Source: Thermoflexales bacterium (lineage in GTDB: Bacteria; Chloroflexota; Anaerolineae; B4-G1; DUEL01). From it: DNA of 48,574 bases. The notes beneath the pieces were generated by a model. The model saw nothing but the letters and a program-made list of their open reading frames with translations, ran no database searches and was not told where the DNA came from. The stretch covers positions 1 to 48,574 of the forward strand of contig JACIWQ010000010.1 of assembly GCA_014360895.1 (NCBI GenBank), written 5' to 3'. The position numbers were made by a program, and so were the translations under genes. Of the stretch, positions 3,673 through 42,491 are shown one piece after another (the first letter of the stretch is position 1; every line of letters starts with the position of its first letter).

Positions 3673-5133
3673 ATGATAGACCTGACCATCCATAGAGCCG
3701 GATTGGAGCGAGCTGTCCAGCGAGCCCGGGAGCGGGGCATCGTCATCCCCACCTTCGCCCAGATGAAGGACCCCAGCCGGATCCCCGAAACCATTCGCGC
3801 CCGCCTGCGGGAAGTCGGCCTCTGGGATGTGAACCCTCTCAACCTGTTCCGCATCACCTGGAAAAATGAACCGGTCCCCTTCGGCGGCGGGTTTGGGGGG
3901 GTGAATTATCTGGAGTTCCCACCCGCCCTCACCGGAGTCCCTGCCCGTATCATCGCCCTGGTAGGCAAGTGGTTCCCCACCGGCGCCCACAAAGTCGGAG
4001 CGACCTTCGGCTGCCTGGTCCCCCGGCTGGTCACCGGACAGTTTGACCCCACATACCATAAGGCCGTCTGGCCCTCCACCGGTAACTTCTGCCGGGGTGG
4101 GGCCTACAACTCCGCCCTTCTGGGCTGCGAATCCATCGCCATCCTGCCGGAGGAGATGAGCCGGGAACGGTTTGAGTGGCTCTCCCGCCTGGCCGGAGAG
4201 GTCATCGCCACGCCGGGCTGTGAGAGCAACGTTAAAGAGATTTTTGATAAATGCTGGGAACTGCGTCGGACCCGTCCCGAGGTCTTCATCTTTAACCAAT
4301 TTGAGGAGTTCGGCAACTACCTCTGGCACTACGAAGTGACCGGCCACGCGATGGAGGAAGTGCTGGCACGGGAACTGGGGCCGAAGGGGACCTACCGGGG
4401 CGTCGTTCTGACCACCGGCTCGGCGGGCACCATTGGCTGCGGGGACTACATGAAGCAGGTCTTCCCCACCAGCAAGGTCGCCGCCAGCGAGGCACTCCAG
4501 TGCCCCACGCTCCTGATGAACGGCTTCGGCGGCCACCGTATTGAGGGCATTGGCGATAAACACGTCCCCTGGATTCACAACGTCAAAAACACCGACCTGG
4601 TGATGGCGATAGACGACGCCGCCTGCCTGGCGCTGGTCCGCCTCTTCAACGAACCGGCCGGGCGGGCCTACCTGGTGCGACAGGGCGTGCCGGAGGCGCT
4701 GGTGGAACGGCTGGACCTGCTGGGCATCTCCGGCATTGCCAACCTGCTCTCCTCCATCAAGTTCGCCAAATGGTACGAACTGGGCGAGCACGATGTGGTC
4801 CTCACCGTCCTGACGGACTCTATGGAACTCTACGGGAGCCGGCTGGTGGAACTGCGCCAGGAGCGGGGGGAGTACACCGAAATGGACGCGGCGGCGGACT
4901 ACCACCGCTATCTGCTGGGGTGCACGGTGGACTTTATGGCCGAACTGGGCTACTGGGAACGGCGCCGCATCCACAACCTGAAGTACTTCACCTGGGTGGA
5001 GCAACAGGGGAAGACGGCGGAGGAACTCCAGGCCCAGTGGTACGACCCGGACTACTGGACAGGCATCCAGCGGCAGGTAGCGGAGATAGACGCCCTGATT
5101 GAGGAGTTCAACGCCCGCGTGGGGCTGATGTAA
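3673..5133 (+). CDS. TrpB/cysteine-synthase-like PLP-dependent enzyme (fold type II)
   Basis: A 486-residue cytoplasmic enzyme of the tryptophan-synthase-beta superfamily. PTGAHKVGATFG (about residues 100-111) supplies the Schiff-base lysine. PSTGNFCRGGAYNSALLG corresponds to the substrate-binding STGNxG loop, and VLTTGSAGTIGCG to the glycine-rich loop that binds the PLP phosphate. It is longer than cysteine synthase (about 310 aa) and TrpB (about 400 aa), with a large C-terminal extension containing an EYTEMDAAADYHRYLLGCT stretch. Similar long proteins are usually annotated only as pyridoxal-5-phosphate-dependent protein beta subunit, and the substrate is not known to me. AGGAGAA at 3657-3663 supports ATG 3673, although the frame is open from 3595. 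It stands alone, with a perfect promoter before it and a hairpin after it. Confidence 0.75.
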   Translation: MIDLTIHRAGLERAVQRARERGIVIPTFAQMKDPSRIPETIRARLREVGLWDVNPLNLFRITWKNEPVPFGGGFGGVNYLEFPPALTGVPARIIALVGKWFPTGAHKVGATFGCLVPRLVTGQFDPTYHKAVWPSTGNFCRGGAYNSALLGCESIAILPEEMSRERFEWLSRLAGEVIATPGCESNVKEIFDKCWELRRTRPEVFIFNQFEEFGNYLWHYEVTGHAMEEVLARELGPKGTYRGVVLTTGSAGTIGCGDYMKQVFPTSKVAASEALQCPTLLMNGFGGHRIEGIGDKHVPWIHNVKNTDLVMAIDDAACLALVRLFNEPAGRAYLVRQGVPEALVERLDLLGISGIANLLSSIKFAKWYELGEHDVVLTVLTDSMELYGSRLVELRQERGEYTEMDAAADYHRYLLGCTVDFMAELGYWERRRIHNLKYFTWVEQQGKTAEELQAQWYDPDYWTGIQRQVAEIDALIEEFNARVGLM

Positions 5134-5140
5134 ACACAAT

Positions 5141-5168
5141 GGGTGGCCGCGCCTTGTCGCGGCCACCC
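5141..5168 (+). terminator. Hairpin after the PLP enzyme gene
   Basis: An 11-bp perfect stem, GGGTGGCCGCG (5141-5151) and CGCGGCCACCC (5158-5168), with a 6-nt loop, begins 8 nt after the stop codon. Only GTTCT follows, so the U-tract is weak. It ends 16 nt before the TPR gene start and could be an attenuating structure rather than a full terminator. Confidence 0.55.
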
Positions 5169-5184
5169 GTTCTATGGATTGCCG

Positions 5185-7440
5185 ATGGCCGGGAATCGCG
5201 CTGTTTACGAAGACGCACTCCGACAGGGAGCTGCTCGGGCCTGGGAGCAGCGCTGGGAGGAGGCCATCGCGGCCTACCAGCAGGCCCTGGCCGAATTTCC
5301 GGATGAACCGGACGCGCTGAGCGGGTTGGGCCTGGCCCTGGCTGGCGCCGGACGGGTGGAAGAGGCGTTGCCCGTCCTCCAGCGCGCCGCTGACCTGGCT
5401 CAGGAAAATCCGGTCCTCCGGGAGCAAGTAGCTCAGGTACTGGAGCGACTGGGGCGCCTGGAGGAAGCCGCCCAGTCTTACCTCCAGGCTGCCGACCTCT
5501 ACCTCCATCAGCAGGCATCCGGTCTGGCCGTGGAGCGCTGGAAGGATGCTCTCCGGGTTGACCCCTCCTGTATCCCTGCCCACGTCAATCTCCTGCGCGT
5601 CTATGTGGGGCAGGGGAAACACCACGAAGCCATCTCCGAGTATCTGGCCCTGGCGACCCTCTACCGCGATCGGGGTGAGACCGAGAAGGCCATGGAACTC
5701 TGCCAGTACGCCCTGAAACTGGACCCGCGCCATCCGGACGTTCTGGCGCTATTGGACGCGCTCCGTTATGGAGTCCCAACGACCGTGGGGACGGGGCCGC
5801 TGGCGGAGCTCTTCCCGGAGGAACGGCCCGAGGCGCCATCGGAGGGAGGAAACCCCGTGGAGACGGCCCGGCGCGCGGCACTGGCCCAACTGGCCGAAGT
5901 GGTCTTTGAGGAGGCGCCGCCCCATACCGGCCCCCTGATCCTCCGTCCCCTCTCCAAACGGGAAATAGATACCCTCATCAGCCGGGGGATTGATGCCCAG
6001 GAACGGGGTGACATAGACGAAGCTATCGCCTGCTACGAAGAGGTCCTGAGGGGTGGTGTCATTGAGCCGGCAGTCAATTTCAACCTGGGGCTTCTGTATC
6101 AGCAAAAACTACAATTTGAGGAGGCGATTGCCCAGTTCCAGCAATCCGTCTCCAGCCCCCAGTACCGGCTGGGCAGCTTTTTTGCTCTGGGAGAGTGCTA
6201 CCGGGCACTGGGGCGCATAGATGAGGCCCTGACCCACTTCCTGGAAGTACTCAAAATCGTGGACCTGAGCACCGTCCGGCAGGACCAGGCGGATGACCTG
6301 ATTCGCCTGTACGATGAACTGGCCCACACCTATGCCGCGCGCGGGGAGCGAGAACAGGCCGTGGAGTTCATCAACACGCTGATTTCGTTCCTCAGTGCGA
6401 AGGGGTGGGAAGACAAGGTCCTTCAGGCCCGGCAACGGTTAGACCTGCTTTCCCGTGAAGGGCCGGTCATGAGCCTGGCCGAGATGCTGACCGTCCCGGG
6501 CTCGGAACGGGTCATTCAGTCCATCGGCCTGGCCCAGGAGTATCTGCGGCGCAACATGCCCCGGGCGGCGATGGATGAACTGATGATCGCCCTGGAACGG
6601 GCCCCGGCGCTCCTCCCCGTCCACCGTCAGATTGGAGAAACCCTGGTCGCGATGGGGCGGACGGAACAGGCGGTGGGAAAATTCCTGGCCATCGCGGATA
6701 CATACCGCGTCCGGGGGAACTTCTCCCAGGCGGTCGCGATGTACGAGCGGGTTCTCCGTCTGGCGCCGATGAACATCACGGCTCGTCTCAAGTTGATAGA
6801 CCTCCTGGTCAGCTTGGGGGAGATTGACCGGGCCCTGGAGCATTACCTGGCTCTGGGGGATGCCTACTACCAGATGGCTCAACTGGACCAGGCGCGGGAG
6901 AAATACAACGAGGCATTGCAACTGGCCCCGCGCGGGAGCCCCGAGCGCCGATGGGAGGTCAAATTCCTCCACCGAATCGGCGATATTGACCTGCAACGGG
7001 TGGAGTGGCGGCGGGCAATGTCCGTCTATGAGCGCATTCGGGACCTCGCCCCGGATGATGAGAAGGCGCGCTTCACCCTGATGGACCTCTACGAGCGGAT
7101 GGGGCGGCCGGATCGGGCACTGGCGGAACTGGATGGCCTGCTCCAGCATTATATGCAGGCCGGGAAAGCCCAGAAGGCCGTCTCTATCCTGGAGAAGCTG
7201 GTGCAGGAGAAACCGGACGGGATTCCCTTACGGGCCCGCCTGGCCCAACTCTACCTGAATACGGGGAGGAGAGAGGACGCGCTGCGGGAACTGGACATCC
7301 TGGGGGACCTGCAACTGCAGGCCGGGAAAGTGAAAGACGCCATCGCGACGGTTCAGGTCATCCTGCGGCTGCGCCCGCCCAATGCCGAGGCCTACCGTCA
7401 ACTGCTGGAGCAACTCCAGGCCGGACAAATCCCGGGATAG
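5185..7440 (+). CDS. Large tetratricopeptide-repeat protein
   Basis: A 751-residue protein built almost entirely of TPR helices; repeated patterns such as A-x-x-x-Y-x-x-[AV]-L-x-L-x-P and LGLALAGAGRVEEALP recur from residue 10 to the end, probably 15 or more units. No catalytic motif, signal peptide or membrane segment is visible, so it is probably a cytoplasmic scaffold. A less regular segment (about residues 195-250) with a proline/glutamate-rich linker divides an N-terminal from a C-terminal TPR superhelix. I chose ATG 5185; the frame is open upstream to GTG 5143, but that would place the start inside the preceding hairpin. The partner cannot be named from sequence. Neighbouring purA is convergent and ends 26 nt away. 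Confidence 0.8.
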   Translation: MAGNRAVYEDALRQGAARAWEQRWEEAIAAYQQALAEFPDEPDALSGLGLALAGAGRVEEALPVLQRAADLAQENPVLREQVAQVLERLGRLEEAAQSYLQAADLYLHQQASGLAVERWKDALRVDPSCIPAHVNLLRVYVGQGKHHEAISEYLALATLYRDRGETEKAMELCQYALKLDPRHPDVLALLDALRYGVPTTVGTGPLAELFPEERPEAPSEGGNPVETARRAALAQLAEVVFEEAPPHTGPLILRPLSKREIDTLISRGIDAQERGDIDEAIACYEEVLRGGVIEPAVNFNLGLLYQQKLQFEEAIAQFQQSVSSPQYRLGSFFALGECYRALGRIDEALTHFLEVLKIVDLSTVRQDQADDLIRLYDELAHTYAARGEREQAVEFINTLISFLSAKGWEDKVLQARQRLDLLSREGPVMSLAEMLTVPGSERVIQSIGLAQEYLRRNMPRAAMDELMIALERAPALLPVHRQIGETLVAMGRTEQAVGKFLAIADTYRVRGNFSQAVAMYERVLRLAPMNITARLKLIDLLVSLGEIDRALEHYLALGDAYYQMAQLDQAREKYNEALQLAPRGSPERRWEVKFLHRIGDIDLQRVEWRRAMSVYERIRDLAPDDEKARFTLMDLYERMGRPDRALAELDGLLQHYMQAGKAQKAVSILEKLVQEKPDGIPLRARLAQLYLNTGRREDALRELDILGDLQLQAGKVKDAIATVQVILRLRPPNAEAYRQLLEQLQAGQIPG

Positions 7441-30474: not shown

Positions 30475-30494
30475 TCGGGCCTCCGGCTACGTAT

Positions 30495-30522
30495 ATTATA
30501 GCCGGTTCTGTGCAGGGGGCAA
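30495..30522 (-). promoter_or_regulatory. Promoter of the S1-clpC unit
   Basis: On the minus strand, TTGCCC (30522-30517), 16 nt, then TATAAT (30500-30495), 20 nt before the S1 start codon. Confidence 0.75.
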
Positions 30523-30541
30523 GTCGCGGGGCGCAAGGGCA

Positions 30542-30593
30542 CAAGTTGCAGGTCGCAGGTCGCAAGTCGCAGGTCGCAGGTCGCAGGTCGCAG
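30542..30593. repeat. Heptamer tandem repeat (CAGGTCG)
   Basis: Seven consecutive 7-bp units: one CAAGTTG, then CAGGTCG with one CAAGTCG variant, ending in a partial CAG. It lies just upstream of the S1 promoter. The gene-free stretch 30475-30762 otherwise holds only this, the S1 promoter and the hairpin at 30700-30739. Confidence 0.95.
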
Positions 30594-30699
30594 CGGGCAG
30601 GGGCAGAGAAGGGGAGGAGCAGAGGAGTAAGCATGGGCTGGAGGTTTTGGGGAGGAGAACGGGAAAATGCCGACTCTCGCCCCTTTCGTTCATCCGATA

Positions 30700-30762: not shown

Positions 30763-31308
30763 CTATGCCTCTCGGAAGGCGGATTCTTTGCGGTGACCGT
30801 TGCCCCCTTCGGTCAATGCCATTTCCTGCTCCAATAGTTCCAAGCGGCGGGTCAGGCGCTCGTTCTCCCGGGCCAGGCGGCGTGCATGTTCTCGCATGGC
30901 CTGGACTTCCGCAGAGGATTGAATCCAGATGCGGCGGGCATAGACGATGATGCGGAAAGCCAGCGCAATTGCCAGGATAAGCAGTGCGAGGCCAACAGTG
31001 ATCACGATCGTTGTGCCAGCCACGCGCAGGAGAAAAAGTTCTATCGCCCATCGGGCCTGACGGTAGGCCCGCTCGTCGGCCTGCTGTTGCTCCAGGGCCT
31101 GAAGGCGCAGTTCCTGTTCCCGCTGATAGGCCTGGAGGTCTATGGTTGCCCGCTGGGTCTGGATGGCGGCCTCCTGCTGGATCCGCTCCGCTTCAGCCTG
31201 ATTGCGGTAGGGGTTCATCAGATCGGTATTGGAGAGAGCTAGCCCTGCCACCAGGCCGATAACAACCAGCATGATGACCAGGAAGACCAGTGCACCGTTG
31301 GCTGTCAT
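30763..31308 (-). CDS. Two-helix membrane protein with two coiled coils
   Basis: A 181-residue protein of unknown function. TM1 is at about residues 6-26, then comes a Gln/Arg/Glu-rich coiled coil (35-85), TM2 (about 91-120) and a second charged coiled coil (128-168) ending in a polar tail. The two helices place both coiled coils on opposite sides or in a hairpin; the topology is not certain. TAGGAGGG precedes ATG 31308. It is the second gene of a two-gene operon with the small membrane protein at 31318-31515 (9 nt gap). No family is recognised. Confidence 0.7.
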   Translation of the reverse strand: MTANGALVFLVIMLVVIGLVAGLALSNTDLMNPYRNQAEAERIQQEAAIQTQRATIDLQAYQREQELRLQALEQQQADERAYRQARWAIELFLLRVAGTTIVITVGLALLILAIALAFRIIVYARRIWIQSSAEVQAMREHARRLARENERLTRRLELLEQEMALTEGGNGHRKESAFREA

Positions 31309-31317
31309 GGTACCCTC

Positions 31318-31515
31318 CTATGGGCCTCTAACGAGGATGACCAGGACACCGAGAGCCGTCGGCACACCGAAGAGGCCCAGGGTCAGTGTGCCCAGGTTGA
31401 GGAGTCGGCTGAACCTGTAGTTGCGATAAATCAGCCAGAACTGGGTCCCCAATACGGCTATCTCCCCAATGACAAAGGCCAGAATCAGGACAATGGCAAA
31501 CCATACCGGCATCAT
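31318..31515 (-). CDS. Small two-helix membrane protein
   Basis: A 65-residue, strongly hydrophobic protein with two membrane helices (about residues 4-30 and 40-63) joined by a short basic loop (YRNYRFSRLL). No family is recognised. GGAGGTG lies 5 nt before ATG 31515 (a second ATG follows directly). A -10-like TATGAT is at 31551-31546, with no matching -35. The 11-bp-phased repeats at 31629-31644 lie about 110 nt upstream, consistent with an activated promoter. Confidence 0.7.
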   Translation of the reverse strand: MMPVWFAIVLILAFVIGEIAVLGTQFWLIYRNYRFSRLLNLGTLTLGLFGVPTALGVLVILVRGP

Positions 31516-31628
31516 CTCGCACCTCCCGCGCAGGTTTCTGTTCTTATCATACCATATGAAGGCCCCGGCTGTACTATCAAATGGGTAGCAGTCAGTTTAT
31601 CGGGTGTTATCTTCCAACCAACAGGTTG

Positions 31629-31644
31629 CTCACAGATTTCTCAC
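31629..31644 (-). promoter_or_regulatory. 11-bp-phased GTGAG direct repeats (two units)
   Basis: On the minus strand GTGAGAAATCT is followed by GTGAGCAA: two GTGAG boxes exactly 11 bp apart (CTCAC at 31629 and 31640 on the plus strand). It closely resembles GTGAGATAACTGTGAGCGA at 39338-39320. Spacing of one helical turn on the same face is typical for OmpR/SARP-type winged-helix proteins. Confidence 0.5.
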
Positions 31645-31678: not shown

Positions 31679-31710
31679 AAAGTGCCGGGCTTTCGGATGC
31701 CCGGCACTTT
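31679..31710 (-). terminator. Terminator of the radical SAM/NTPase cluster
   Basis: A 12-bp perfect stem (AAAGTGCCGGGC / GCCCGGCACTTT) with an 8-nt loop. The minus strand continues into a five-T run and GTTG. It lies 28 nt after the stop of the radical SAM gene. The stem core is nearly that of the 26819-26850 terminator. Confidence 0.88.
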
Positions 31711-31737
31711 GCTGAACCGAAATGGTTGCCTGGGTTT

Positions 31738-33291
31738 TTACGGGGTACCGTGAGTCCGCATTATTCTCAGCCCCTCCAGCCGCAGGAGGTCGGGGAGCAC
31801 GGCCCGATAGACGGCACAGTAGGGAGACGGGGCCAGCGGTGTGCCCCGATGCCGTTGGGCCATCAGCGGACAGCCGCCCGCGCAGATGTAGCGCCAGGGG
31901 CACTCCCGGCATTCCTCCTTTTCCTCCACCGGCGGGTTGCGGAACCCGTCCTCCGCCCGCACTGCGGCCAGCGGGTCCTCCTCCCAGACGGTGCCGGCCG
32001 TCCGCTCCATCTCCATATGGCAGCGGGCCACTCTGCCCTCCGGCCCGACCACCAGATAGGCGTGCCCGGCGCCGCAGGGGTAACGGTGGGGGAGGCCGAA
32101 GTCGCAGCGGTCCAGCAGATTGCAGAGGGCAAAGGGGAGGCTGCCGGCCACCGATTGCAACCGACGTTCTATCTCATCCAGGGCGGCCCGCAGGCCGGCG
32201 ATGAGGCGCTCCGGTTCGGGATTCAGGTCGGGACGGCCGGGGGCCGGGCGGACGAAGTTCAGGTTGAAGGGCATTTTCCGGTCCAGCGCGGAGGCCACCA
32301 CCTCCGCCAAACGGTCCACATTGTAGGTAGTGACGGTGACGGAGAGGTGAGGGGTCAGGCCCAGGGCCATCGCCTGTTCCAGTCCTCTGGCAACTCTCGC
32401 GAAGGAGCCGTTGCCGTCGGCGGACATCCGTTGCCCGTCGTGGGCCGGGCCCAGGCCGTCCAGGGAGACGGCAAGCCGAATCCCCTCATCCCGGAGCCAG
32501 CTCAGCAGGGCAGGGGTCAGGGTCGTGCCGTTGGTGAGGAGCACTTCCCGCAGTTCCAGGCCGGCCTGGGCGGTGCGTGCCCGCGCATACTCGTGGACGG
32601 CGCGGAGGGTGGGGAGGTTGAGGGTTGGCTCGCCGCCGGCGTACTTGAGTTTCAGGGCCCGGAAGCCACCTGCCCGCGCCGCGCGAATGGCCCCCTCCAC
32701 CGCCGCCTGCCCGACCTCCGGGGACATGTCGGCGTCGCCCCGGGGGGCGTAGCAGTAGGCGCAGCGGAGGTTGCAACGGGTCGTGAGGTGGAGCCAGATG
32801 GTGAGGGCGGGAGGGGTGAAGCGTGAAGCGGGAGGCGTGAAACGTGAAGCGTGAAGCGTGAGGCGTGAAACGTGGCGTGAAGCGTGAAACGTGACGGTAT
32901 CGGGGGGCTGGGGTGCCAGGAGGCCCAGCGCGGCCAGTTGGTGGGCGGTGGGGTCGGCCAGGGGGGCGGGGGTAGCGAAAGAATCCAGCATCTGAGCTGC
33001 CGGAGGGTTCAGCACCACCACTCCGGCGGGGCCGACGGGGTTGAAGGCCAGATGGTAGCCGTCGGGAAGGGGGGCGCGGTAGAGGGAGGGAGAGAGTCCC
33101 CAGAGCCCGGCAGGAGGCGGCTTGCCGATGGCCGATGGCAGGCCGGAGGGCATCGCGGGCGCGCAGGCGCAGTCGGTTTCGGCCACCTCAATCGCCGAAG
33201 TGATCCAGAAACCGGCGGCACAGGCGCAATCGGATTCACCATAATCATCGGCTGAAGGTGGAGTGAAAAAGATAGCACAACGATGGCTCAC
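31738..33291 (-). CDS. Radical SAM/SPASM protein with Cys-rich N-terminus
   Basis: A 517-residue peptide-modifying-type radical SAM enzyme. Residues 1-50 contain two near-identical boxes, ESDCACA (19-25) and ETDCACA (38-44). Residues 65-125 (LYRAPLPDGYHLAFNPVGPAGVVVLNPPAAQMLDSF) look like a PqqD/RRE-type peptide-binding module. Residues 131-162 (TFHASRHVSRLTLHASRFTPP) are translated ACGTGAA-type repeat DNA. The radical SAM core has C173, C177 and C180 in TTRCNLRCAYC with AGGEPTLN. The C-terminal SPASM region has CGAGHAY...ARCHME, ECRECPWRYICAGGC and SPYC for auxiliary Fe-S clusters. AGGAGC precedes GTG 33291. It overlaps the GNAT gene by 47 nt and ends at a good terminator. The substrate is unknown; no separate precursor peptide gene is visible. 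Confidence 0.85.
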   Translation of the reverse strand: MSHRCAIFFTPPSADDYGESDCACAAGFWITSAIEVAETDCACAPAMPSGLPSAIGKPPPAGLWGLSPSLYRAPLPDGYHLAFNPVGPAGVVVLNPPAAQMLDSFATPAPLADPTAHQLAALGLLAPQPPDTVTFHASRHVSRLTLHASRFTPPASRFTPPALTIWLHLTTRCNLRCAYCYAPRGDADMSPEVGQAAVEGAIRAARAGGFRALKLKYAGGEPTLNLPTLRAVHEYARARTAQAGLELREVLLTNGTTLTPALLSWLRDEGIRLAVSLDGLGPAHDGQRMSADGNGSFARVARGLEQAMALGLTPHLSVTVTTYNVDRLAEVVASALDRKMPFNLNFVRPAPGRPDLNPEPERLIAGLRAALDEIERRLQSVAGSLPFALCNLLDRCDFGLPHRYPCGAGHAYLVVGPEGRVARCHMEMERTAGTVWEEDPLAAVRAEDGFRNPPVEEKEECRECPWRYICAGGCPLMAQRHRGTPLAPSPYCAVYRAVLPDLLRLEGLRIMRTHGTP

Positions 33292-33760
33292 AACCTGCTC
33301 CTTGTTTTGAAGATGGCAACTCCAGGGCCATTTCTATCCATTCATCCTCCCCCCAGCCCGTAGGCCTGAAACCGTATTCTGAAAAAAGTTTCATAGCCTG
33401 ATGGTTATCGGATCGGGTGGTCAAGACCAGGCGAGAAAGCCCACGCTCCTGGGCCCAGGCAATAGCCTGCACGAGCATCTGCGCACCCAACCCCTGACCT
33501 CTGGCAGAAGCCAGAAGCCCAATACCCAGTTCGGCTTCCTCTTCGCTGGTAGGGAAAAGGCGGCACCACCCAACAATCCGTTCGCCGCTCAGCGCAACCA
33601 GCAGCAAGTGGCATGAACAATCCGGCTGGCTCAGCGCGTGCTCCCAGGCCGGCGTGGGCTCAAAGCGGGGGGTGCGCATCATCCCCTCAGCGCAGACGGT
33701 GTTGACAATAGAGCAAAGTTCGTCGTGGTCTCGAAGCCGATATAATCTTACCTCATGCAG
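33245..33760 (-). CDS. GNAT-family acetyltransferase
   Basis: An approximately 171-residue N-acetyltransferase. The acetyl-CoA-binding motif A is plain (ELGIGLLASARGQGLGAQMLVQAIAWAQERG), as is the C-terminal motif B region (LVLTTRSDNHQAMKLFSEYGFRPTG). The acyl acceptor is unknown. The start is a problem: homology-like sequence begins at HEVRLYRLRDHDEL, but no ATG, GTG or TTG lies there. The nearest candidate is CTG at 33760, inside the end of the NTPase-TPR gene, and the next ATG (two in tandem, about 33682) would cut off 26 residues of the domain. A non-standard start or a single-base error at the ATGA near 33757 are both possible. It overlaps the genes on both sides, so it belongs to the same transcript. 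Confidence 0.75.
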   Translation of the reverse strand: MHEVRLYRLRDHDELCSIVNTVCAEGMMRTPRFEPTPAWEHALSQPDCSCHLLLVALSGERIVGWCRLFPTSEEEAELGIGLLASARGQGLGAQMLVQAIAWAQERGLSRLVLTTRSDNHQAMKLFSEYGFRPTGWGEDEWIEMALELPSSKQGAGCEPSLCYLFHSTFSR

Positions 33761-36700
33761 CCAGTTGGTGCAGTTCTTCGTATGGGCCGAAATGTTTGAC
33801 CAGTTCTTTCCAGAGACGCCAATCTTCCTTTCGGGCTTTCCAGGGGAATTCATCGGCCATACCGGCGACAGCGTCATAGAAAGTCCTCAACTCCGAAACA
33901 TTCAGCACTTTCAGGCGATTATGGATCAGGTTGAGCGCCCGGCGAAGGTCCCGGAAATTTTCAGCCACCAGGGCATCATACTCCAGGGCCAGAGCAAATT
34001 CCCGGGCCGCCTGTCGTAAAGAGGGATAAGGTGGATGCAGTTGACTCTCCTGGGTTGGTGCAAAGCGATCCAGGGCACGCACGCCCTTAAGGATGTGCAA
34101 TCGGGCCATCTGAGAGAAAACAGCTAGAATCGTGTTCTCCTGGATAATAGGAGAGGTCTCAGGGGTTATCTGATACTGAGCAAACTGCTCCTGGATCAAC
34201 TGCTCCACTTTGGCTTGGTGTAAGCGGAGTTTTTCATCTGCGCCGGTGTAATGATATAGCCACGCCAAACCCATCGCAGCATCCAGATACAGCACCCATA
34301 GTTTGTGTTTCTCAGAAATTTCCATCGCCTGCCGGAATGAAGATTCCGATTGGCGGGCATGTTGTTCAATGTCCACCCCTTCTATCAAGGGGGGACGACA
34401 GAATTCCCGGTGGGCGATAGCTTCCTCATAGTAGGCTGTCCCCAACCGTTCAGGCTCCAGGAGGCGCTGAGAAAAAATCTCCTTAGCTTGGTGGCTGTAT
34501 TCCAGTGATTTCTCCAACCGGCTTTTCCGGGTGGCCGCCGGACAGGGCGGCTCGCTCATATAGCGGTAACAGGCGGCCAGGGAAAGAGCAGCCAATCCTT
34601 CGCCGCGATGGAAGTCGACCTCCCGAGCCACAGCCAACGCCCGGTGGGCCCACTCTTCGGCTGCCCGATAATCACCGGCGTAAATCTCAATCTGGGCGCG
34701 AGTGTTTAGCGCAAGGGACACGGCGCCGGCCAGGCCCAACCCCTGGCGCAATTTTAAAGCATCATTGGCATGACGGCAGGCGGGGTCAAATTCGCCCCGG
34801 AGAGCCAGGACAAAGGCCAGGTTGGTCAGCGTATTGGCCTGTTCGGCTTCCATTTTGACCGCGCGCCAGTGGGGGAGGGCTTTCCAGTACATCTCAGCTG
34901 CGGCGATAAATTGCCCCTGTACTCGCCGCAGATATCCCCAATGGTTATACAGTCGGCCAAGTATGGCACTATGCCGAATCCGAGTCTCTGAAGAAACCTC
35001 TAGAGCCCCCAAACGTTGTTGGGCTTCGTATAACCTGTGTTCGGCCTCAATCAAGTTCCCCTGATAGAAATGAATAGCAGCTTCAGCAATATCTAACTCG
35101 GCCTGGGTGAGGGGGCCGCCATCTGCAATCAGATACCGGGCCTCCCCTCGCAGCCTCTCTACCAACAGCTTTGCTTTGTCATACTCTCCAGCGACAATCT
35201 GCCGCTTAACCCACCGGACCGCTGCATCGGCCCGGACCTCGGCAAGAGAAAGATTCTGAACCCTGTCGGTGTGGCCTTGGGGAGCTTGTTCCCTCAAGAA
35301 TTCCATCAACTCTACTTGCAACTGAGCGTCCAATGTCCCATCGCCCATAGCCAACGCTTCTTCGGCGTACACAAAATATTGGTCAAATCCTTCGCGAGGG
35401 CTTCGGCGCAATCTGTAGTAAAGGTATTCCACCAAAGCTTCTCGGAGGCGCGCTGTTTCCAGAGCAATTTGATCTGAAGGGGGAAGACCAGATTGAACCT
35501 CGTACAAGCTTAAAATGTTCGCTTTGATCTGGTCAATGAGGGCTTCGTAATACTCCCGAAGAGGCTTGAACACCGCCTCCGGAATAGTCCCCCGGGGGTC
35601 ACGGAGAAGAGCATACATTTCATCATGCAGGAAGAGGCGCTGGTCAGCAGGACGGATTTTCACAAAAGAGAGGCGGCGGACCCGCTCGCATGCCTCTTTC
35701 AGCACATCCCCGCCAAGACCTGTGATTTGGCCTAAAAGGGCTTCATCGGCACCCCGATGTAGCCAGCTCAGGGCTTCCACCACTTTCTCCGTTGGATGCA
35801 AAGCCATGCGGATGGCCTCTTCCACCCCTTTTAGCAGACTGCCCTGGAGTTTCTCTCGTTCCTCTTTGGAAAGCCCTTTCACCTCTTCAAGAGACCGACC
35901 CAATGGAAAAGGCTGCCCGCTGATTGCCAGATACTCTATGGCCAGAGCTAGAAAGACGGGGCGCACTGTACCATCGTCCCGTAGGCCATAGAAACACATG
36001 CGGCGGAGATCGTTGTCCCACTGGGACAATCTATCAGCAGCCAACCGGTCTCGCGCTTCGGGGCTGGAGCGAAGAAAAGGAAGCAATACTTGAAAGTACT
36101 CTAAAGTTTCCTCTTCCGTAAAGCCCGAGAGCGAGATCGGAATAAAATTCCCGATGTTCTTCAATTCTTCTTCCACAGGAACAGGGCGGCCAGCCAGAAT
36201 GATCACCGTGTTCTGAAGATTAGGGAGAAAATCCTTCAAAAGCCATCCATAAACCATAGCAGCACCAATGGGAATACCCAATTCTCGGGCAACCGGATCA
36301 TCACGAAGAAACAATCGTTCCACCGTGTCTAAACCGAACAGAACGCGAGTTTGTTGGGCCATCTCGTTCCAGTCGCGGATGAAAGCCTCGATCATTTGCT
36401 CTTTCTGCCGTTGCCGTTCTGTGCTTTCTTCGGGTACCCGTCTCCACTTTTCTCGCTCTTCCAGATACCGTTCAAAGCCCTCCCCGCTCGGAGACATCAC
36501 GTCTTGAAGAGATTGCAAAAGCCCTTCCACAGTATGATTGATGGTGTGGTACATATCCACCGGCCGGGTGGCAGCTCGCAGGGATAGACCCTCCGGAGGA
36601 TTTTGGAGAATATGTTGAAGCAAGCGGGTTTTGCCGATACCGCCTGGCCCGGTAATGTAAATCACATACCGGTGGGGATGGTCCCGAAGGGCTTCCTCCA

Positions 36701-36791
36701 CAGAGGCCAGTTCCTTTTTCCGACCCACCAGCGTCGCCGTGGCGAGAGGGCTCAAATACACCTCTTCCGGGGAAATCGTAAAAGGGATCAT
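33753..36791 (-). CDS. STAND-like P-loop NTPase with TPR C-terminus
   Basis: A 1012-residue protein. After a short leader, the NTPase begins VGRKKELASVEEALRDHPHRYVIYITGPGGIGKTRLLQH, with Walker A GPGGIGKT at 48-55 and a Walker-B-like RVLFGLDT at 149-156. IILAGRPVP, before the ELKNIGNFIPISLSGFTEEETLEYF segment, resembles the sensor-1 and arm region of STAND/AAA ATPases. A helical middle domain leads to TPR-like helices (about 560-920), for example GYLRRVQGQFIAAAEMYWKALPHW and FVLALRGEFDPACRHANDALKL. STAND proteins of this shape act as ligand-triggered switches in signalling or antiphage defence. No effector domain (nuclease, TIR, protease) is visible in it. Its ATG overlaps the previous stop by 4 nt; it is the last of five NTPase genes. 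Cytoplasmic. Confidence 0.8.
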   Translation of the reverse strand: MIPFTISPEEVYLSPLATATLVGRKKELASVEEALRDHPHRYVIYITGPGGIGKTRLLQHILQNPPEGLSLRAATRPVDMYHTINHTVEGLLQSLQDVMSPSGEGFERYLEEREKWRRVPEESTERQRQKEQMIEAFIRDWNEMAQQTRVLFGLDTVERLFLRDDPVARELGIPIGAAMVYGWLLKDFLPNLQNTVIILAGRPVPVEEELKNIGNFIPISLSGFTEEETLEYFQVLLPFLRSSPEARDRLAADRLSQWDNDLRRMCFYGLRDDGTVRPVFLALAIEYLAISGQPFPLGRSLEEVKGLSKEEREKLQGSLLKGVEEAIRMALHPTEKVVEALSWLHRGADEALLGQITGLGGDVLKEACERVRRLSFVKIRPADQRLFLHDEMYALLRDPRGTIPEAVFKPLREYYEALIDQIKANILSLYEVQSGLPPSDQIALETARLREALVEYLYYRLRRSPREGFDQYFVYAEEALAMGDGTLDAQLQVELMEFLREQAPQGHTDRVQNLSLAEVRADAAVRWVKRQIVAGEYDKAKLLVERLRGEARYLIADGGPLTQAELDIAEAAIHFYQGNLIEAEHRLYEAQQRLGALEVSSETRIRHSAILGRLYNHWGYLRRVQGQFIAAAEMYWKALPHWRAVKMEAEQANTLTNLAFVLALRGEFDPACRHANDALKLRQGLGLAGAVSLALNTRAQIEIYAGDYRAAEEWAHRALAVAREVDFHRGEGLAALSLAACYRYMSEPPCPAATRKSRLEKSLEYSHQAKEIFSQRLLEPERLGTAYYEEAIAHREFCRPPLIEGVDIEQHARQSESSFRQAMEISEKHKLWVLYLDAAMGLAWLYHYTGADEKLRLHQAKVEQLIQEQFAQYQITPETSPIIQENTILAVFSQMARLHILKGVRALDRFAPTQESQLHPPYPSLRQAAREFALALEYDALVAENFRDLRRALNLIHNRLKVLNVSELRTFYDAVAGMADEFPWKARKEDWRLWKELVKHFGPYEELHQLAA

Positions 36792-37927
36792 CGCTCTCCC
36801 TCCTTCTGCCGAGTTAAACAGTTTTGATGATAGGATCTTTCACCCTCCCAGCGCGTTGCCGTAGAGGGAAATTCCTTCGCCCAGCGCTCATATAGATCGC
36901 GCGCGGCTTGGTGGAGAGCTTCCCACTTATCCGGATGGTTTTGCTGGAGGTGAAGTTCCACTAACTGGCGAACGATTCTATCCAAGACATACGCTCTTTC
37001 GTCAACGTCCCACTGGGCCAGGGCCCAACGGATCAGTTCGTCCCGCACCTGCCGGGCCTGAGCATATGTCCATTCCCGATAGGAGCGGTCACCGGTATAA
37101 GCCGCCATCATCTCGGGAATTCGGTCCTCATCAAAAGCGCGCAGAACACAGAGCGCCTCCAGATATTCGCGGATTTTCTGGCGGTGTTCCTCAGGGACTG
37201 GCTCCAGTAATTCCTCAATCACCGCATCTGACACCTGAGTGGGTTGGGGTTCTGCAGCGAGGAGGTAATTAGCCAGGGGGTTGCCCCCCGTCATACGGTG
37301 GATTTTCCCGGCTTGCGGAAGACCTTGTTGGGCCTGCCTTTCCAATTGCTGTCGGGTCTCCTCTTCACTTGGGAGCGGTTTTACGATCACCGGCTCTGCA
37401 CGAATCGTCAGGTCAGGTGTCCTCCATGGATACCATCGGCCGCGCCCTGTTAAGACAATAAACACCCGGGGCTCGGAGATCAGGGGGGCCAGTAGGTACT
37501 CCTCCAACAATGCCAGCAATGTCCAATCAGACTCATAAACGTGGTCTAGGATAAGGATAAGCGTTTTCCTGATCTTACGGACATGCTGGAGAAGTGTGCG
37601 AGACATCTCGGCCAAGTCGGTGCCCAGACGCTCCCCAGGCCCCCCAATCTTCTCGCTGACCCGACGGATAATATCCGCTGTGGCCCATCCCGGCTCCCTA
37701 CCCCTGTACTCCTTCAGGTCCAGCCGTAACACCTGGAGATCCTTGCGACGACGAAGTTGCCATTCCCAATGGGCTGGCAGCCAGGACTTTCCCACCCCAC
37801 GCTCCCCTCTAAAAATAACGGCGCGCTTTTCACCGGACTCTAAAATACGATCCAGCCGACTCAGTTCTTCTTCACGATTTACAAACTTGTCCGGCGAGTA
37901 CAATGGCGGAGAGAGCAGAACGGTCAT
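36788..37927 (-). CDS. P-loop NTPase (AAA/STAND-like), third small cluster member
   Basis: A 379-residue protein. VNREEELSRLDRILESGEKRAVIFRGERGVGKSWL gives Walker A GERGVGKS at 41-48; TLILILDHV (about 121-129) is Walker B, with His in place of the usual second acidic residue. RVFIVLTGRGRW follows as a sensor-1-like strand, and PLPSEEETRQQLERQAQ as the helical arm. The last 170 residues are helical and charged, with no known domain. The frame is open upstream to 38536, but GGAGG just before ATG 37927 and the 4-nt overlap with the upstream gene fix the start. It also overlaps the downstream NTPase-TPR gene by 4 nt. It is probably a soluble partner of the other NTPases; no function is known. Confidence 0.75.
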   Translation of the reverse strand: MTVLLSPPLYSPDKFVNREEELSRLDRILESGEKRAVIFRGERGVGKSWLPAHWEWQLRRRKDLQVLRLDLKEYRGREPGWATADIIRRVSEKIGGPGERLGTDLAEMSRTLLQHVRKIRKTLILILDHVYESDWTLLALLEEYLLAPLISEPRVFIVLTGRGRWYPWRTPDLTIRAEPVIVKPLPSEEETRQQLERQAQQGLPQAGKIHRMTGGNPLANYLLAAEPQPTQVSDAVIEELLEPVPEEHRQKIREYLEALCVLRAFDEDRIPEMMAAYTGDRSYREWTYAQARQVRDELIRWALAQWDVDERAYVLDRIVRQLVELHLQQNHPDKWEALHQAARDLYERWAKEFPSTATRWEGERSYHQNCLTRQKEGER

Positions 37928-39126
37928 TTGAGTCCTCCTTGAAAATAATAGATAGACATCGTCTGGTACCAATGGATGGCTGCTTGGATGTCCATTGCCG
38001 CTAAAAGGCCATCCCCTTCTCGCCGGACATGCTCCTCCACAACGCGGCGAGTAATAACCAGTATTTCGCGCGGGAGGGGATAGACCGTCTTCGCCAACAA
38101 AGTCTCTATATCCCGCAGAGCAGGGGAGGCCAAAGCATCCAGGCTGCCAAAGGCGCCCTCGGTGGCCACGTAGACCCGCCGACGAATCACCTCTGCCAAC
38201 AACTCCGGCGTCCAGTGAATGACGGACACACAAGCCGGGGTAAATATATCCGGGAAGCGTTCCTCCAGTGGAGATTGCGCTTCCATAGGGAGAAACCCCT
38301 TCAGGAATACCCGCTCTTCCGCCCATTCCCCCGCCCATTGCAATAGGGGCTTCAAGCAGCCGGCGATGGCCGATGGGTCGGCAATTGTTTCGGGCGCGCC
38401 ATCCAGCCCATCCAGCAAGACATAGACGCTCGGAAAGCCCAACAGGCCCCGCAGGAGATCCTTTAATCGCACCCAACGTTCTCCGGGTGGAGGTGGCGGC
38501 CCACCTCCGGCAACCGCTTCCAGAGCGTCGCACCACCTGATTACCTCATCGGGAGCAGGCGGGTTTCGGAGGACGAAAGCGGGGTCCAGAACTTCCGACA
38601 GGATCTGGGGATTCGCGGCCGCACGGCACCGCCCCAGATAGGCCGAGAGGGGACCAGGAAGATTCCAATGAAGTGTCTCAGCAATATGCCGACGTCCCGG
38701 TTCATCCAAGCGAAGAAACCAATAAGGACGATAGGCCATAACCAGGAGGAGCGCGATCGCGCCTGCGCGGGACAAAGCAGCCAGGTGCTCCTCTTCTGAA
38801 GGATGTGTGTGTCCCCAGGCCAGGAAGGGGGGCACATAGGGGATCGGGAAGGGGCGATTGGTCTCTTGCCCGACCCAGCAGGCCTGCATCACGCTGATGC
38901 GCAGGGCCGTTTTGCCACCGCCTGCTGGAGCAAAAACCCAGGAAACTCCATCTCCCCAGACGCGCGCGAAGATATGGTGGCCGACCAAGTACTCACTGAG
39001 GTGGGGATCGGCAGCCGCATCCAGCAATGCGAAGGGGTCAAACCGAAAGCCAGCCCACCTCAGCCACTTGGTCACCTCCGGCGCGTCCGGCATGCCCTGA
39101 GGAATAGTGCTATCTGGAGAAGCCAT
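37924..39126 (-). CDS. P-loop NTPase, paralogue of the winged-helix NTPase
   Basis: A 400-residue protein. WAGFRFDPFALLDAAADPHLSEYLVGHHIF precedes VSWVFAPAGGGKTALR (Walker A at about 66-73). VYVLLDGLDGAPET (about 234-247) is Walker B with Asp-Gly-Leu-Asp. The DPxLSxYxV...F lead-in and the LLDGLDG strand match those of the next gene upstream (EDEPWLSVCFVPPPEF and WVMTDGLEG), so the two are divergent paralogues. Residues 170-215 form a Pro-rich insertion. The C-terminal 120 residues are helical, with no DNA-binding domain. The start is uncertain: ATG 39126 and GTG 39135 lack a good ribosome-binding site. It lies 220 nt after the winged-helix NTPase gene, and that gap holds the phased repeats. 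Confidence 0.72.
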   Translation of the reverse strand: MASPDSTIPQGMPDAPEVTKWLRWAGFRFDPFALLDAAADPHLSEYLVGHHIFARVWGDGVSWVFAPAGGGKTALRISVMQACWVGQETNRPFPIPYVPPFLAWGHTHPSEEEHLAALSRAGAIALLLVMAYRPYWFLRLDEPGRRHIAETLHWNLPGPLSAYLGRCRAAANPQILSEVLDPAFVLRNPPAPDEVIRWCDALEAVAGGGPPPPPGERWVRLKDLLRGLLGFPSVYVLLDGLDGAPETIADPSAIAGCLKPLLQWAGEWAEERVFLKGFLPMEAQSPLEERFPDIFTPACVSVIHWTPELLAEVIRRRVYVATEGAFGSLDALASPALRDIETLLAKTVYPLPREILVITRRVVEEHVRREGDGLLAAMDIQAAIHWYQTMSIYYFQGGLK

Positions 39127-39322
39127 CGGAGTCACAGAAGGGGAAGGGGGAGAAACAGTAGCAATATCATCTATGCCGGACCAACCGAAAAATCGCCGGA
39201 TAGTAAAAATAGCATCTTTTTACCCCCTCTGGTTTCTCCAAATGCAGATATATTATGGCGCGGTTAATAAAATGAGGCAAGAGCGTATAGGGCTTTCGCG
39301 CTTGCAATTCTCTTTAAAATCG

Positions 39323-39349
39323 CTCACAGTTATCTCACCAATTCCTCAC
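39323..39349 (-). promoter_or_regulatory. 11-bp-phased GTGAG direct repeats (three units)
   Basis: CTCAC occurs at 39323, 39334 and 39345 on the plus strand, i.e. three GTGAG boxes at exact 11-bp steps on the minus strand, the strand of the operon. They overlap the stop codon of the winged-helix NTPase gene and lie upstream of the next NTPase gene. The following 190 nt (39136-39322) is AT-rich, and a CATAAT/TATATC stretch near 39248-39258 could be a -10. Confidence 0.55.
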
Positions 39350-40764
39350 CAGCGGACCTGAAGGACCACGCCGTGCCCCCGGCGAGTGAGGAGGAGAACC
39401 GGCTCTCGGGGGTCCGGTTCTATCGCCTGTCGCAAGCGCCAGAGATTGGTATCTATCAGGCCGGCATATTGGGTGGGGGCTTCGTAACCGTCATCCCCTG
39501 GGCGAGGAATCCGCTCCTTGCCGAGATACACCCGGAAGTACAGTTCGGCTTTAGTAACTACCTGACCACTATGGCGATACAAATAGCAGAGCATGTCATA
39601 GGCTTTTGCCGGCAGGTCCTCCAGGTTAACCAAGCGGCCTCCGATTCTTACCTGCCGCCTCTCCTCGTCAAGATAGAATCGCGGAGGATGTTCCTGCCGC
39701 AATCTTTTCCAAGTTTCCTCCCCTATGGGTGTGTCCTGGGGATTGGCCATATAGTATTCGGCCAGTACCGCCACTTGGTCCAGCCACTCCCGGGGCGACG
39801 TGCCTCCCACTTTCTCCAACCACTTCCGGAGCGTGGGAGCGCTGCAGAGTTGGTCCAGGGAGAATGTTTCTTTCCCAAAAGCGAAGGCCAGGCGCCGTTC
39901 CACTAGCCCCTGGAGCATAGAAGGGTCCCATCGGATCCGGATGCCCTCTATGCGCCGTCGGGCCATCCCACTGGCGCGGCTGACCGCTGGCTCCATCTCT
40001 GCTGGTAGGAACAATTTGTACACCGGGCCGGATGGGCTGAAAAGAGAGAGAGTGGATAGAAAAGCCTTCAGGCTTTCCGTCAGGTGTTCCGGGGCCACGC
40101 TGGCCCATCCTTCTAAGCCGTCGGTCATTACCCAGATACCTTCCATCCCCAACCCCTTCACCGCACTGAGCAATTCAGCCAACACCATTTCGGAAGGAGC
40201 ATCATTGTACAGAACAGTGGGAACAGGGGCTCCTAAAACCTGGCGAATCAGAGGGGCCCCCGGCTCAGAGCCCTCTGCCAGTGGTTTCCAGCGCACTTCC
40301 GGCGGGCCGAGGGTATACCGATGGATAAACCAGATAATGCGTTCCTGGACCCATTCGGAGACGCCCGTGTAATCCTCCGGGAAACGGTAGAGATGGTGGA
40401 CCAGTGCCGAAGCACAGGCATCCAGCATCTCCCTTGTTAGCCGACTGACCCAGGGCAGGCCCGAATGCTCCTCCGGTGGAAGCGGGGCCGGGCGCCAGTG
40501 GACTATCAAACGCACCGGCCTGCCATCCGGGCGAATATTAAGGGCCTCCAACTCCCGGTAGATAGCCGTCTTGCCGCTTCCTGGCTCGCCAAAAATCACA
40601 CAGGAGCGAGAGTCAGCCATCCGACCGAATTCCGGTGGGGGAACAAAACATACCGAAAGCCACGGCTCATCCTCCGCCCGAAGAAATCGGAAGACAGTCG
40701 GGCCAGGAGAATCACCCTTTGAATCGGCAAGAAGTCTCTGAGAATCGGAGGGTTCTATGCCCAT
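39346..40764 (-). CDS. P-loop NTPase fused to C-terminal OmpR-type winged helix
   Basis: A 472-residue protein. CVIFGEPGSGKTAIYREL gives Walker A at 59-66, and GIWVMTDGLEGW (209-220) is Walker B. A helical region follows, then residues 364-472 form a winged-helix domain of the Trans_reg_C (OmpR/PhoB) type: RQVRIGGRLVNLEDLPAKAYDMLCYLYRHSGQVVTKAELYFRVY...IDTNLWRLRQAIEPDPREPVLLLTRRGHGVVLQ, with the recognition helix at DTNLWRLRQAIEP and the wing at TRRGHGVVL. The order NTPase then winged helix is the reverse of SARP/AfsR proteins. It is probably a nucleotide-switched transcription factor for this cluster; the phased repeats overlapping its own stop codon are candidate targets. The start ATG shares one base with the preceding stop (TGATG). 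Confidence 0.8.
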   Translation of the reverse strand: MGIEPSDSQRLLADSKGDSPGPTVFRFLRAEDEPWLSVCFVPPPEFGRMADSRSCVIFGEPGSGKTAIYRELEALNIRPDGRPVRLIVHWRPAPLPPEEHSGLPWVSRLTREMLDACASALVHHLYRFPEDYTGVSEWVQERIIWFIHRYTLGPPEVRWKPLAEGSEPGAPLIRQVLGAPVPTVLYNDAPSEMVLAELLSAVKGLGMEGIWVMTDGLEGWASVAPEHLTESLKAFLSTLSLFSPSGPVYKLFLPAEMEPAVSRASGMARRRIEGIRIRWDPSMLQGLVERRLAFAFGKETFSLDQLCSAPTLRKWLEKVGGTSPREWLDQVAVLAEYYMANPQDTPIGEETWKRLRQEHPPRFYLDEERRQVRIGGRLVNLEDLPAKAYDMLCYLYRHSGQVVTKAELYFRVYLGKERIPRPGDDGYEAPTQYAGLIDTNLWRLRQAIEPDPREPVLLLTRRGHGVVLQVRW

Positions 40765-42491
40765 CAGGCCGGCCCCAACACTTCATCCAGGTCTTCTGGT
40801 GTCAACCGGCGCCCTGTCTCACCGATACGCCGAAGCAGGGCGTTGCCCAGGGAAATCAGTTGGCGAGGGCTATGCCCGGATGCTGCAATCAACCGCTCCT
40901 CTGCCGCAAGCCCTTCCCATACCCGCAGGTCACACCACGCATCCAGGGTCTCCTCAGAGGTTAGACGGCCCAACCGGCGCTGCAGCAAGGCCCGAAGGTC
41001 CTCATCTGACCATTCCAGCGACTCCCCATACTTCCATAGGCTTGTAGCAGGAGAGGCGGCCACGAAAACCTGAAAGGAGACACCGGTCTGAACCAATACA
41101 TCCTTAAATGCGTAAAAAGATAGAATAGCATCTTCGGTTTCCATGATTCCCTGAACATCCAACAGAACCAGAGTACGAGGGAAATCCGCCGGACGGGCTT
41201 CATCTAACAACCGGAGAAGGTCTGCCTGGGAAAGCGTTGATTTAGATAAACCAGCAGGATAGGCTTTGAACTCCTCCTGTACTTTTCCACCCTCCCCAGC
41301 GGATGACAAGCCCGCTTCCTGAAGATAGATGAGAGGGTCCACAGGCAGGTAGCCGGAAAGAAGCCGTTTGATCGCTTGTCTGGCGCTATAGGGGCATTTC
41401 GTTAAAGCGGAGGGGGAAAGCGCGACGTATCGGGCGATTGCTTGAGCCGTCCACCGCGCCAGATTGTCCAGGCTTAATGGAAGTGCGGCCACTCGGCAGT
41501 ATACCGGAAACGCCGTTTGCCTATCCAGAACATCGTAGGCCAGGAGAAGCGCGGCGGCGGTTCTGCCGCCTCCGGGCACAGTGACGAAAATTTCACTGGA
41601 AGAAAGGGCTATCTTCTCCCACCATGAAGGGTGCACCCGGGCTTTCAGCAAATGAGCGTCCACTTCCGCTCTCTCCGGGCCAAACAGGTTGACGCTCAAC
41701 CCCAGATACCTAAGGCCCCGAATGACCCATCGGTCCGGCGCAGACAAATCCTTGCCGAGGGTAACTTCTGACCAAATGCCTACAATCGCCCGCCATTTTT
41801 TCTCGGTCCATTCGGGGAGAGAGCCTCCCAAATTCAGCAGCTTGTCGGCTACGCGGGAGCGCCAATCTTCATCAAGATGATTGTAGACCCATAGGAGAGA
41901 CGCACACTCTTCAGTGGGAGCAAAATCCTTTGCTTCAGGAAATTTTTCTAACAGGGCGACCGCGCAGCGGAGTTCTGGGGGAGACCCTCTTTCCCACACT
42001 TCCTCCAGGCGGGCACGAATCCGGCCATGTCGCCAGATACCCCCCATTTGCCTAAATTTCACGTAACGGCGTGCACCCTCGGATAAGTCCCTCCGAAGAA
42101 GGTCGGGGAACTCTTCTTCAATACCGCAGATAGCCCGGGTCTCTTCTTCGCGCTGGCGTCGCTCTTCTTCTTCGTGACCTTTCCACTGCTGGAGGCCAAA
42201 ACCGATCAGAGCTGAGAGCAGGGAACCCAGAAAAGCGATGGATTCTTTTCCTTCGCCCACCAGCGGGATTTTCAGGGTATCGGGAAGGAGATACCTCATG
42301 AGGTAAAAAAGCCCAATAGCCCCCAATACCCATAGGAGCAAGATAAACAGGGCTTTAAAAAACCGCCAAAGAGCCAAAAAAAGCCATTCATCGGCAAGAT
42401 GCCAGTACCACCGCTGGATTCGGCGAAACCAGTCCTGATACCAGCGCCCGATTCGGTGGAGCCAGCCAGGGGAAGATTTTCTGCCCGCCAC
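40764..42491 (-). CDS. Membrane-anchored protein with degenerate P-loop NTPase domain
   Basis: A 575-residue protein, first gene of the cluster. A basic/aromatic leader (GWLHRIGRWYQDWFRRIQRWYW) is followed by membrane helices at about 36-69 and 84-101, then a charged helix (HEEEERRQREEE) and a cytoplasmic region. EIFVTVPGGGRTAAALLLAYDVL (301-323) occupies the Walker A position but has Arg in place of the invariant Lys, so ATP hydrolysis is doubtful. RTLVLLDVQGIME (439-451) is Walker-B-like without the glutamate. FQVFVAASPATS resembles sensor 1, and SGHSPRQLISLGNALL a C-terminal helical lid. It looks like an inactive NTPase anchoring the system to the membrane. GGAGGGGGGT precedes GTG 42491. 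Confidence 0.72.
   Translation of the reverse strand: MAGRKSSPGWLHRIGRWYQDWFRRIQRWYWHLADEWLFLALWRFFKALFILLLWVLGAIGLFYLMRYLLPDTLKIPLVGEGKESIAFLGSLLSALIGFGLQQWKGHEEEERRQREEETRAICGIEEEFPDLLRRDLSEGARRYVKFRQMGGIWRHGRIRARLEEVWERGSPPELRCAVALLEKFPEAKDFAPTEECASLLWVYNHLDEDWRSRVADKLLNLGGSLPEWTEKKWRAIVGIWSEVTLGKDLSAPDRWVIRGLRYLGLSVNLFGPERAEVDAHLLKARVHPSWWEKIALSSSEIFVTVPGGGRTAAALLLAYDVLDRQTAFPVYCRVAALPLSLDNLARWTAQAIARYVALSPSALTKCPYSARQAIKRLLSGYLPVDPLIYLQEAGLSSAGEGGKVQEEFKAYPAGLSKSTLSQADLLRLLDEARPADFPRTLVLLDVQGIMETEDAILSFYAFKDVLVQTGVSFQVFVAASPATSLWKYGESLEWSDEDLRALLQRRLGRLTSEETLDAWCDLRVWEGLAAEERLIAASGHSPRQLISLGNALLRRIGETGRRLTPEDLDEVLGPA

Follow-up and report, generated by a model that had tools for sequence, protein, structure and literature searches.

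The window (that is, the whole stretch of 48,574 nucleotides that we analysed) contains a cluster of genes that are all on the minus strand. These encode, in order, a membrane ATPase, an ATPase with a winged helix, two more ATPases, an AAA_16-TPR protein, a GNAT protein, a radical SAM/SPASM protein, and proteins of 65 and 181 amino acids (Table 1). A group of short repeats, which we call operator 1, lies between the second gene and the third, and the radical SAM gene is followed by a hairpin and then by operator 2. The first three ATPases are related to one another, and the same gene order recurs in many genomes of the class. PADLOC did not call any system at the cluster and its only hits there, to TPR and to a viperin-like (generic radical SAM) protein, were weak.

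Table 1. Genes, repeat boxes, and predicted promoter elements of the cluster, by position in the window.
Feature	Positions	Strand	Remarks
Membrane-anchored paralogous ATPase	40764..42491	-	first gene
AAA+ ATPase with C-terminal OmpR/PhoB-type winged helix	39346..40764	-	proposed regulator
Operator 1 box 1, GTGAG	39345..39349	-	overlaps TGA stop of ATPase-winged-helix gene; conserved in 22 loci
Operator 1 box 2, GTGAG	39334..39338	-	
Operator 1 box 3, GTGAG	39323..39327	-	
Operator 1 degenerate in-phase boxes 4 and 5	39301..39316	-	TAAAG (39312-39316), GCAAG (39301-39305)
Candidate -35, TTGCCT	39275..39280	-	17 bp from -10; orthologues lack a -35 consensus
Candidate -10, CATAAT	39252..39257	-	92 bp from operator 1 box 1; aligns with orthologues
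Paralogous ATPase, 403 aa	37924..39135	-	first large gene behind operator 1
ATPase_2/AAA_16-like ATPase	36788..38536	-	true start probably near 37940
AAA_16 and TPR protein, 1012 aa	33753..36791	-	
GNAT acetyltransferase	33245..33877	-	
Radical SAM/SPASM protein	31738..33291	-	two N-terminal DCACA motifs
Inverted repeat and T run (GTGCCGGGC...GCCCGGCAC)	31681..31711	-	terminator-like, ahead of operator 2; read from sequence
Operator 2 box 1, GTGAG	31640..31644	-	
Operator 2 box 2, GTGAG	31629..31633	-	
Operator 2 degenerate box 3, GTTGG	31618..31622	-	L079 has the same word in phase
Candidate -10, TATGAT	31546..31551	-	93 bp from operator 2 box 1
65-aa two-TM protein	31318..31515	-	first gene behind operator 2
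181-aa membrane protein	30763..31308	-	predicted TM segments and a charged, probably coiled-coil stretch

Two of the proteins vary in ways that are worth recording. Parts of the first gene are exchanged from one genome to another: its product has transmembrane segments in the window, a TIR domain at L138 (G223), and EAD7 at L129 (G237) and L073 (G011). Also, nearly all full-length orthologues of the radical SAM/SPASM protein (for example those at L071, L072, L073, L077, L079, L133, and L134) carry one to three N-terminal DCAC(A/S/P) motifs, which look as if a substrate or a core-like repeat had been fused to the enzyme.

The repeat unit of both operators is GTGAG, with copies 11 bp apart. A sequence-only reading of the window had placed the complement, CTCAC, at 39323, 39334, and 39345 and again at 31629 and 31640, with a shared core of GTGAGAnAnCTGTGAGC; when we reread the sequence, all five boxes were there, and the core was correct for 39338-39322 and 31644-31628. 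To these we add the degenerate boxes TAAAG and GCAAG in operator 1, which have counterparts at L076, L077, and L078 and a weak consensus across loci, and GTTGG in operator 2. As in operators of OmpR-family regulators, the half-sites run head to tail, are one helical turn apart, and are upstream of a predicted promoter. The hairpin is likely to be the terminator of the main operon, judging from its sequence, and similar hairpins are found at L075, L077, and L079.

The repeats are rare. GTGAG-N6-GTGAG matches the window three times, as compared to a mean of 0.05 and a maximum of 2 in shuffled sequences. When we scanned the window for spacings of 8-24 bp, none but 11 bp recurred: besides the 22-bp pair that is implied by the triple, there was one lone pair, at 18 bp. 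The whole 3.57-Mb genome has just seven matches, three of which are in the window, and a reversed control pattern has three. So the matches are neither numerous nor randomly placed, as they might have been if the sequence-only reading were mistaken. Using a 33-bp model of the array, the two arrays in the window score 37.4 and 21.3 bits. We inspected the four other exact matches in the genome as well as three relaxed ones, and none of them scores above 9 bits; most overlap or adjoin coding sequence. (The highest-scoring of the seven, G000:C3:11374, precedes a small Cys-rich open reading frame, and we discarded it as a probable chance match.) In its own genome, then, the only two convincing arrays are both at this cluster.

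The array is conserved behind the regulator gene. We searched 396 genomes of the class for orthologues, and the full-length ones are 29-73% identical. The first 70 nt from the stop codon contain a GTGAG array of three half-sites in 11-bp steps at 22 loci, from 21 genomes and 14 families of one class, and box 1 usually coincides with the stop codon (TG-GTGAG, for example). The sequence-only reading had staked its proposal on conservation beside orthologous genes, and this is what we see. When we applied a fixed GTGAG score to the 70 nt after each stop, a shuffle p-value of 0.01 or less was obtained at 22 of 34 winged-helix loci, while other gene families give 0/23, 0/22, 0/27, 1/27, 0/13, 2/21, 0/7, and 0/3 (these p-values ignore the relatedness of the genomes). 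Given the 14 families and the identities down to 29%, shared inheritance of unconstrained non-coding DNA is an unlikely explanation, although these counts also ignore relatedness. The array is present as well in three relatives that were outside of the training set (L149, L150, and L153), and these loci contain no further site of at least 14 bits except for the array's own one-box shift. The class is probably the Anaerolineae: the L140 orthologue has five named relatives, from Anaerolineae and Chloroflexi MAGs. A search for relatives with the window's protein as the query gave no match.

There are exceptions. A solitary copy of the regulator (L130, in G393) has neither the operon nor the array. 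L081 (G007) has a full-length orthologue and the cluster but neither the gap nor the array, which counts against our model. In a few genomes, arrays are found elsewhere, either before the first gene or in a divergent arrangement, so the regulon differs between genomes. Finally, in a distant clade (L085, L086, and L087), TGTCA-type triplets in 11-bp steps, as judged by eye, follow the winged-helix gene, and the recognition helix is different. This one clade hints that the repeat word and the recognition helix may change together.

What would bind these boxes? The C-terminal domain of the protein encoded just upstream is similar to a winged-helix profile (1.8e-12), to RegX3 (3.8e-7 over residues 364-468), to PhoB (2.4e-7), and also to WalR and YycF, and the match spans the whole domain. 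An AlphaFold model of the protein (pLDDT 92, pTM 0.88) has a winged-helix fold that hits YycF, VicR, and PhoB on pho-box DNA (1gxp) with target TM scores of 0.70-0.79. In the model, the fold has an N-terminal sheet, three helices, and a C-terminal hairpin, and there is an insertion ahead of the recognition helix. Thus, by sequence (RegX3, PhoB) and by predicted fold alike, the winged helix is of the OmpR/PhoB type, which bears out the earlier guess. The rest of the protein is less conventional. We found no receiver domain but rather an AAA+ ATPase in its place, so this is not a two-component response regulator. The ATPase had no hit to a STAND family, and its best fold matches are Orc1/Cdc6, TnsC, and BrxC. 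There was no match to a BTA domain either, and the winged helix is C-terminal, so the protein is not a SARP. We did not recognise any other DNA-binding domain among the proteins of the cluster.

The helical phasing of the arrays to the promoters, which the sequence-only reading did not notice, suggests how they might work. The -10 boxes are predictions and were chosen automatically by a model that was blind to phase; at operator 1, the scan ranks an overlapping TAATAT (offset 94) above the CATAAT of Table 1 (offset 92). From box 1 to the predicted -10, the offsets are 48, 50, 58-60 (8 loci), 70-71 (4 loci), 81-84 (3 loci), and 89-94 (4 loci), which are close to whole helical turns (about 49, 60, 70, 81, and 92 bp). 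For the first arrays, phasing at 10.5 bp gives R = 0.77 (permutation p = 0.0005), and for the second sites, which are a separate set, it gives R = 0.53 (Rayleigh p = 0.003), with both p-values ignoring relatedness. The second-site offsets include 93 in the window, 92 at L079, 71 at L073, and 81 at L139 and L141, but some of the others do not fit the phase or are distant (54 at L071, 77 and 116 at L128, 105 at L080, 104-109 at L137, and 115 at L074). We also looked for a -35 consensus across the orthologous promoters and found none, as the matches are at background (2.3 versus 2.5). Whole-turn phasing to the -10 together with the lack of a -35 consensus points to an activator that would sit on one face of the helix. 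There are no boxes ahead of the first gene of the window's cluster, so in the window, the regulator's own expression is not under the array.

The link from the cluster to the membrane-protein operon, which had been proposed from the window alone, extends to other genomes. Besides the window, arrays are found behind the radical SAM gene at L071, L072, L073, L079, L129, L131, L134, L137, L139, and L141, with scores of 12-25 bits. In most of the readable cases, including several clusters, these precede membrane-protein genes, and in some cases they precede other genes. At L133, two arrays lie ahead of a membrane-protein gene that is divergent from the cluster, and two dispersed paralogues of the membrane protein, L074 (in G003) and L080 (in G002), have arrays of their own. 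The weakest of the second arrays are at L072 and L131 (about 12 bits). Reversed contigs yield 17 hits of at least 9 bits, so a score below about 13 should not be trusted by itself. At L137 (in G123), the second array is followed not by the gene for the 181-aa membrane protein but by one for an SPFH/Band_7 protein (4876-5692, minus strand).

We propose that the adjacent ATPase-winged-helix protein has its operator in these boxes and would activate its own cluster as well as the membrane-protein operon, and we put the probability of this at roughly 0.83. In the window, the regulator and the membrane ATPase that precedes it would be made from their own box-free promoter. When a trigger arrives, the AAA+ part would assemble the regulator, presumably in an ATP-dependent manner, and several of the C-terminal winged helices would bind head to tail on three or more 11-bp half-sites (GTGAG-N6) along one face of the helix. 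The bound array would then recruit RNA polymerase to a promoter that lacks a clear -35 and whose -10 is downstream by a whole number of helical turns. The targets would be the ATPase-ATPase-TPR-GNAT-radical SAM operon and, separately, the membrane-protein operon behind the terminator.

Two parts of this proposal can be weighed separately: that the cluster's own winged-helix protein binds the boxes, and that it activates rather than represses. We infer both. A protein that binds the same boxes as a repressor or as a looping operator, and that releases the operons when it is triggered, could account for the several genomes in which arrays are far from the -10 or flank a gene on both sides. However, the arrays precede the -10, in most cases at whole-turn spacing, and the -35 is missing. 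An upstream, phased site and a missing -35 are hallmarks of activators, while the site of a simple repressor would extend into the core promoter. We therefore consider repression to be unlikely. It is less probable still that we are looking at PHO boxes or at sites for another OmpR-family response regulator that is encoded elsewhere. PHO boxes are 11-nt direct repeats whose word depends on the species (PMC4415409), which could extend to GTGAG-N6. But in a PHO regulon, many phosphate genes around the genome would be preceded by boxes, and we found only the two convincing arrays, both at the cluster. Furthermore, the array accompanies the ATPase-winged-helix gene in 14 families, and the distant proteins at L085-L087, with their other recognition helices, have their own triplets at a similar place.

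We give slightly less credence still to the idea that the repeats are used by another product of the cluster or at the level of RNA. Repeats at the end of a gene could work in the transcript of that gene, but the second array is intergenic and comes after a terminator-like hairpin, and the cluster lacks another recognised DNA-binding domain. Also, the repeats keep their helical phase to the downstream -10, so they appear to act as DNA. As for chance or coding constraint, box 1 does overlap the tryptophan and stop codons (TGG TGA). Boxes 2 and 3, though, are non-coding and are conserved throughout the class, and at the dispersed membrane-protein sites the boxes do not overlap codons in this way. 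Chance is contradicted by the enrichment near the stop codon and by the arrays at the three loci outside the training set. We regard this explanation as negligible. We are left with activation by the cluster's own protein as our preferred reading.

Among known systems, the closest cases seem to be the SARP activators AfsR and PimR: by analogy, the regulator would function as they do without being a member of that family. AfsR, a large STAND-type SARP of Streptomyces, also combines an OmpR-type DNA-binding domain with a nucleotide-binding domain and recognises 11-bp direct repeats, and ATP relieves the inhibition of its transcription activation (PMC10936776). But in AfsR the DNA-binding domain is N-terminal and is followed by BTA, NOD, and TPR, while our protein has a C-terminal winged helix, no BTA or TPR, and an Orc/TnsC-like ATPase rather than a NOD. 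Similarly, the afs box has two repeats that overlap the -35, while here three or more repeats are upstream. The operator of PimR, a SARP-LAL, has three heptamers with 4-bp spacers, which are bound cooperatively at one target promoter (PMC5930380). This resembles our arrays in its 11-bp step, its three repeats, and its position clear of the -35, but the repeat (CGGCAAG), the protein architecture, and the target pathway differ.

The regulator might read DNA much as PhoB does on the PHO box, with the same winged-helix fold (1gxp, 3t72) on 11-nt head-to-tail repeats, which in PHO boxes have words such as CTGTCAT or GTTCACC (PMC4415409). It would not belong with PhoB, however, as it lacks a receiver, has an ATPase in place of phosphorylation, uses another word, and has a local rather than a global regulon. 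The ATPase part matches the Sll1717-family P-loop ATPases and the DS41_1 anti-phage protein (NCBIfam) in 22-23 of 24 orthologues, but the window's protein does not reach the curated cut-offs and has the winged helix in addition. The cluster also resembles the NTP-dependent conflict systems of Kaur et al. 2020 (PMC7159879) in having several ATPases and, in orthologues of its first gene, TIR or EAD domains. That paper includes Chloroflexi among the hosts, and a term search of it gave no match for this gene set with a radical SAM and a winged helix. Our term search of the open-licence literature found no description of the cluster, but an earlier description may exist.

Because orthologues of the first gene carry TIR and EAD7 domains, a conflict-type role is suggested, and the cluster may be an inducible conflict or stress system. 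More specifically, and tentatively, it could be a previously undescribed, transcriptionally inducible multi-ATPase system of the Anaerolineae. A sensor ATPase with membrane, TIR, or EAD parts and an AAA+-winged-helix activator would switch on membrane effectors and a radical SAM/SPASM enzyme whose own N-terminal DCAC motifs might be a built-in substrate. We think that this fuller picture is rather less likely to be right than wrong. In any case, the arrays provide a testable pair of regulator and operator for a widespread and unstudied cluster of the Chloroflexota. They also identify its likely regulon, which includes membrane proteins that nothing else would have tied to the cluster. An AAA+ domain with a C-terminal OmpR-type domain would be an unusual design for an activator under ATP control. 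Owing to the whole-turn spacing, the mechanism could readily be probed in a reporter assay.

We also note two features of the intergenic DNA. After operator 1, there is a short open reading frame with a ribosome-binding site (39170-39230, minus strand; ATG CTA TTT TTA CTA... and close variants), which starts alike in G000-G003 (L010, L011, L012, and L013) and is possibly a leader peptide. We considered it as a leader or a RiPP precursor, but the peptide is not conserved beyond those four genomes, and we dropped frameshifting into the next gene because there is no slippery site in common. And at 30480-30640, ahead of an S1-domain gene, the intergenic DNA contains tandem GCGACCTGCGACCT-like units of about 7-14 bp.
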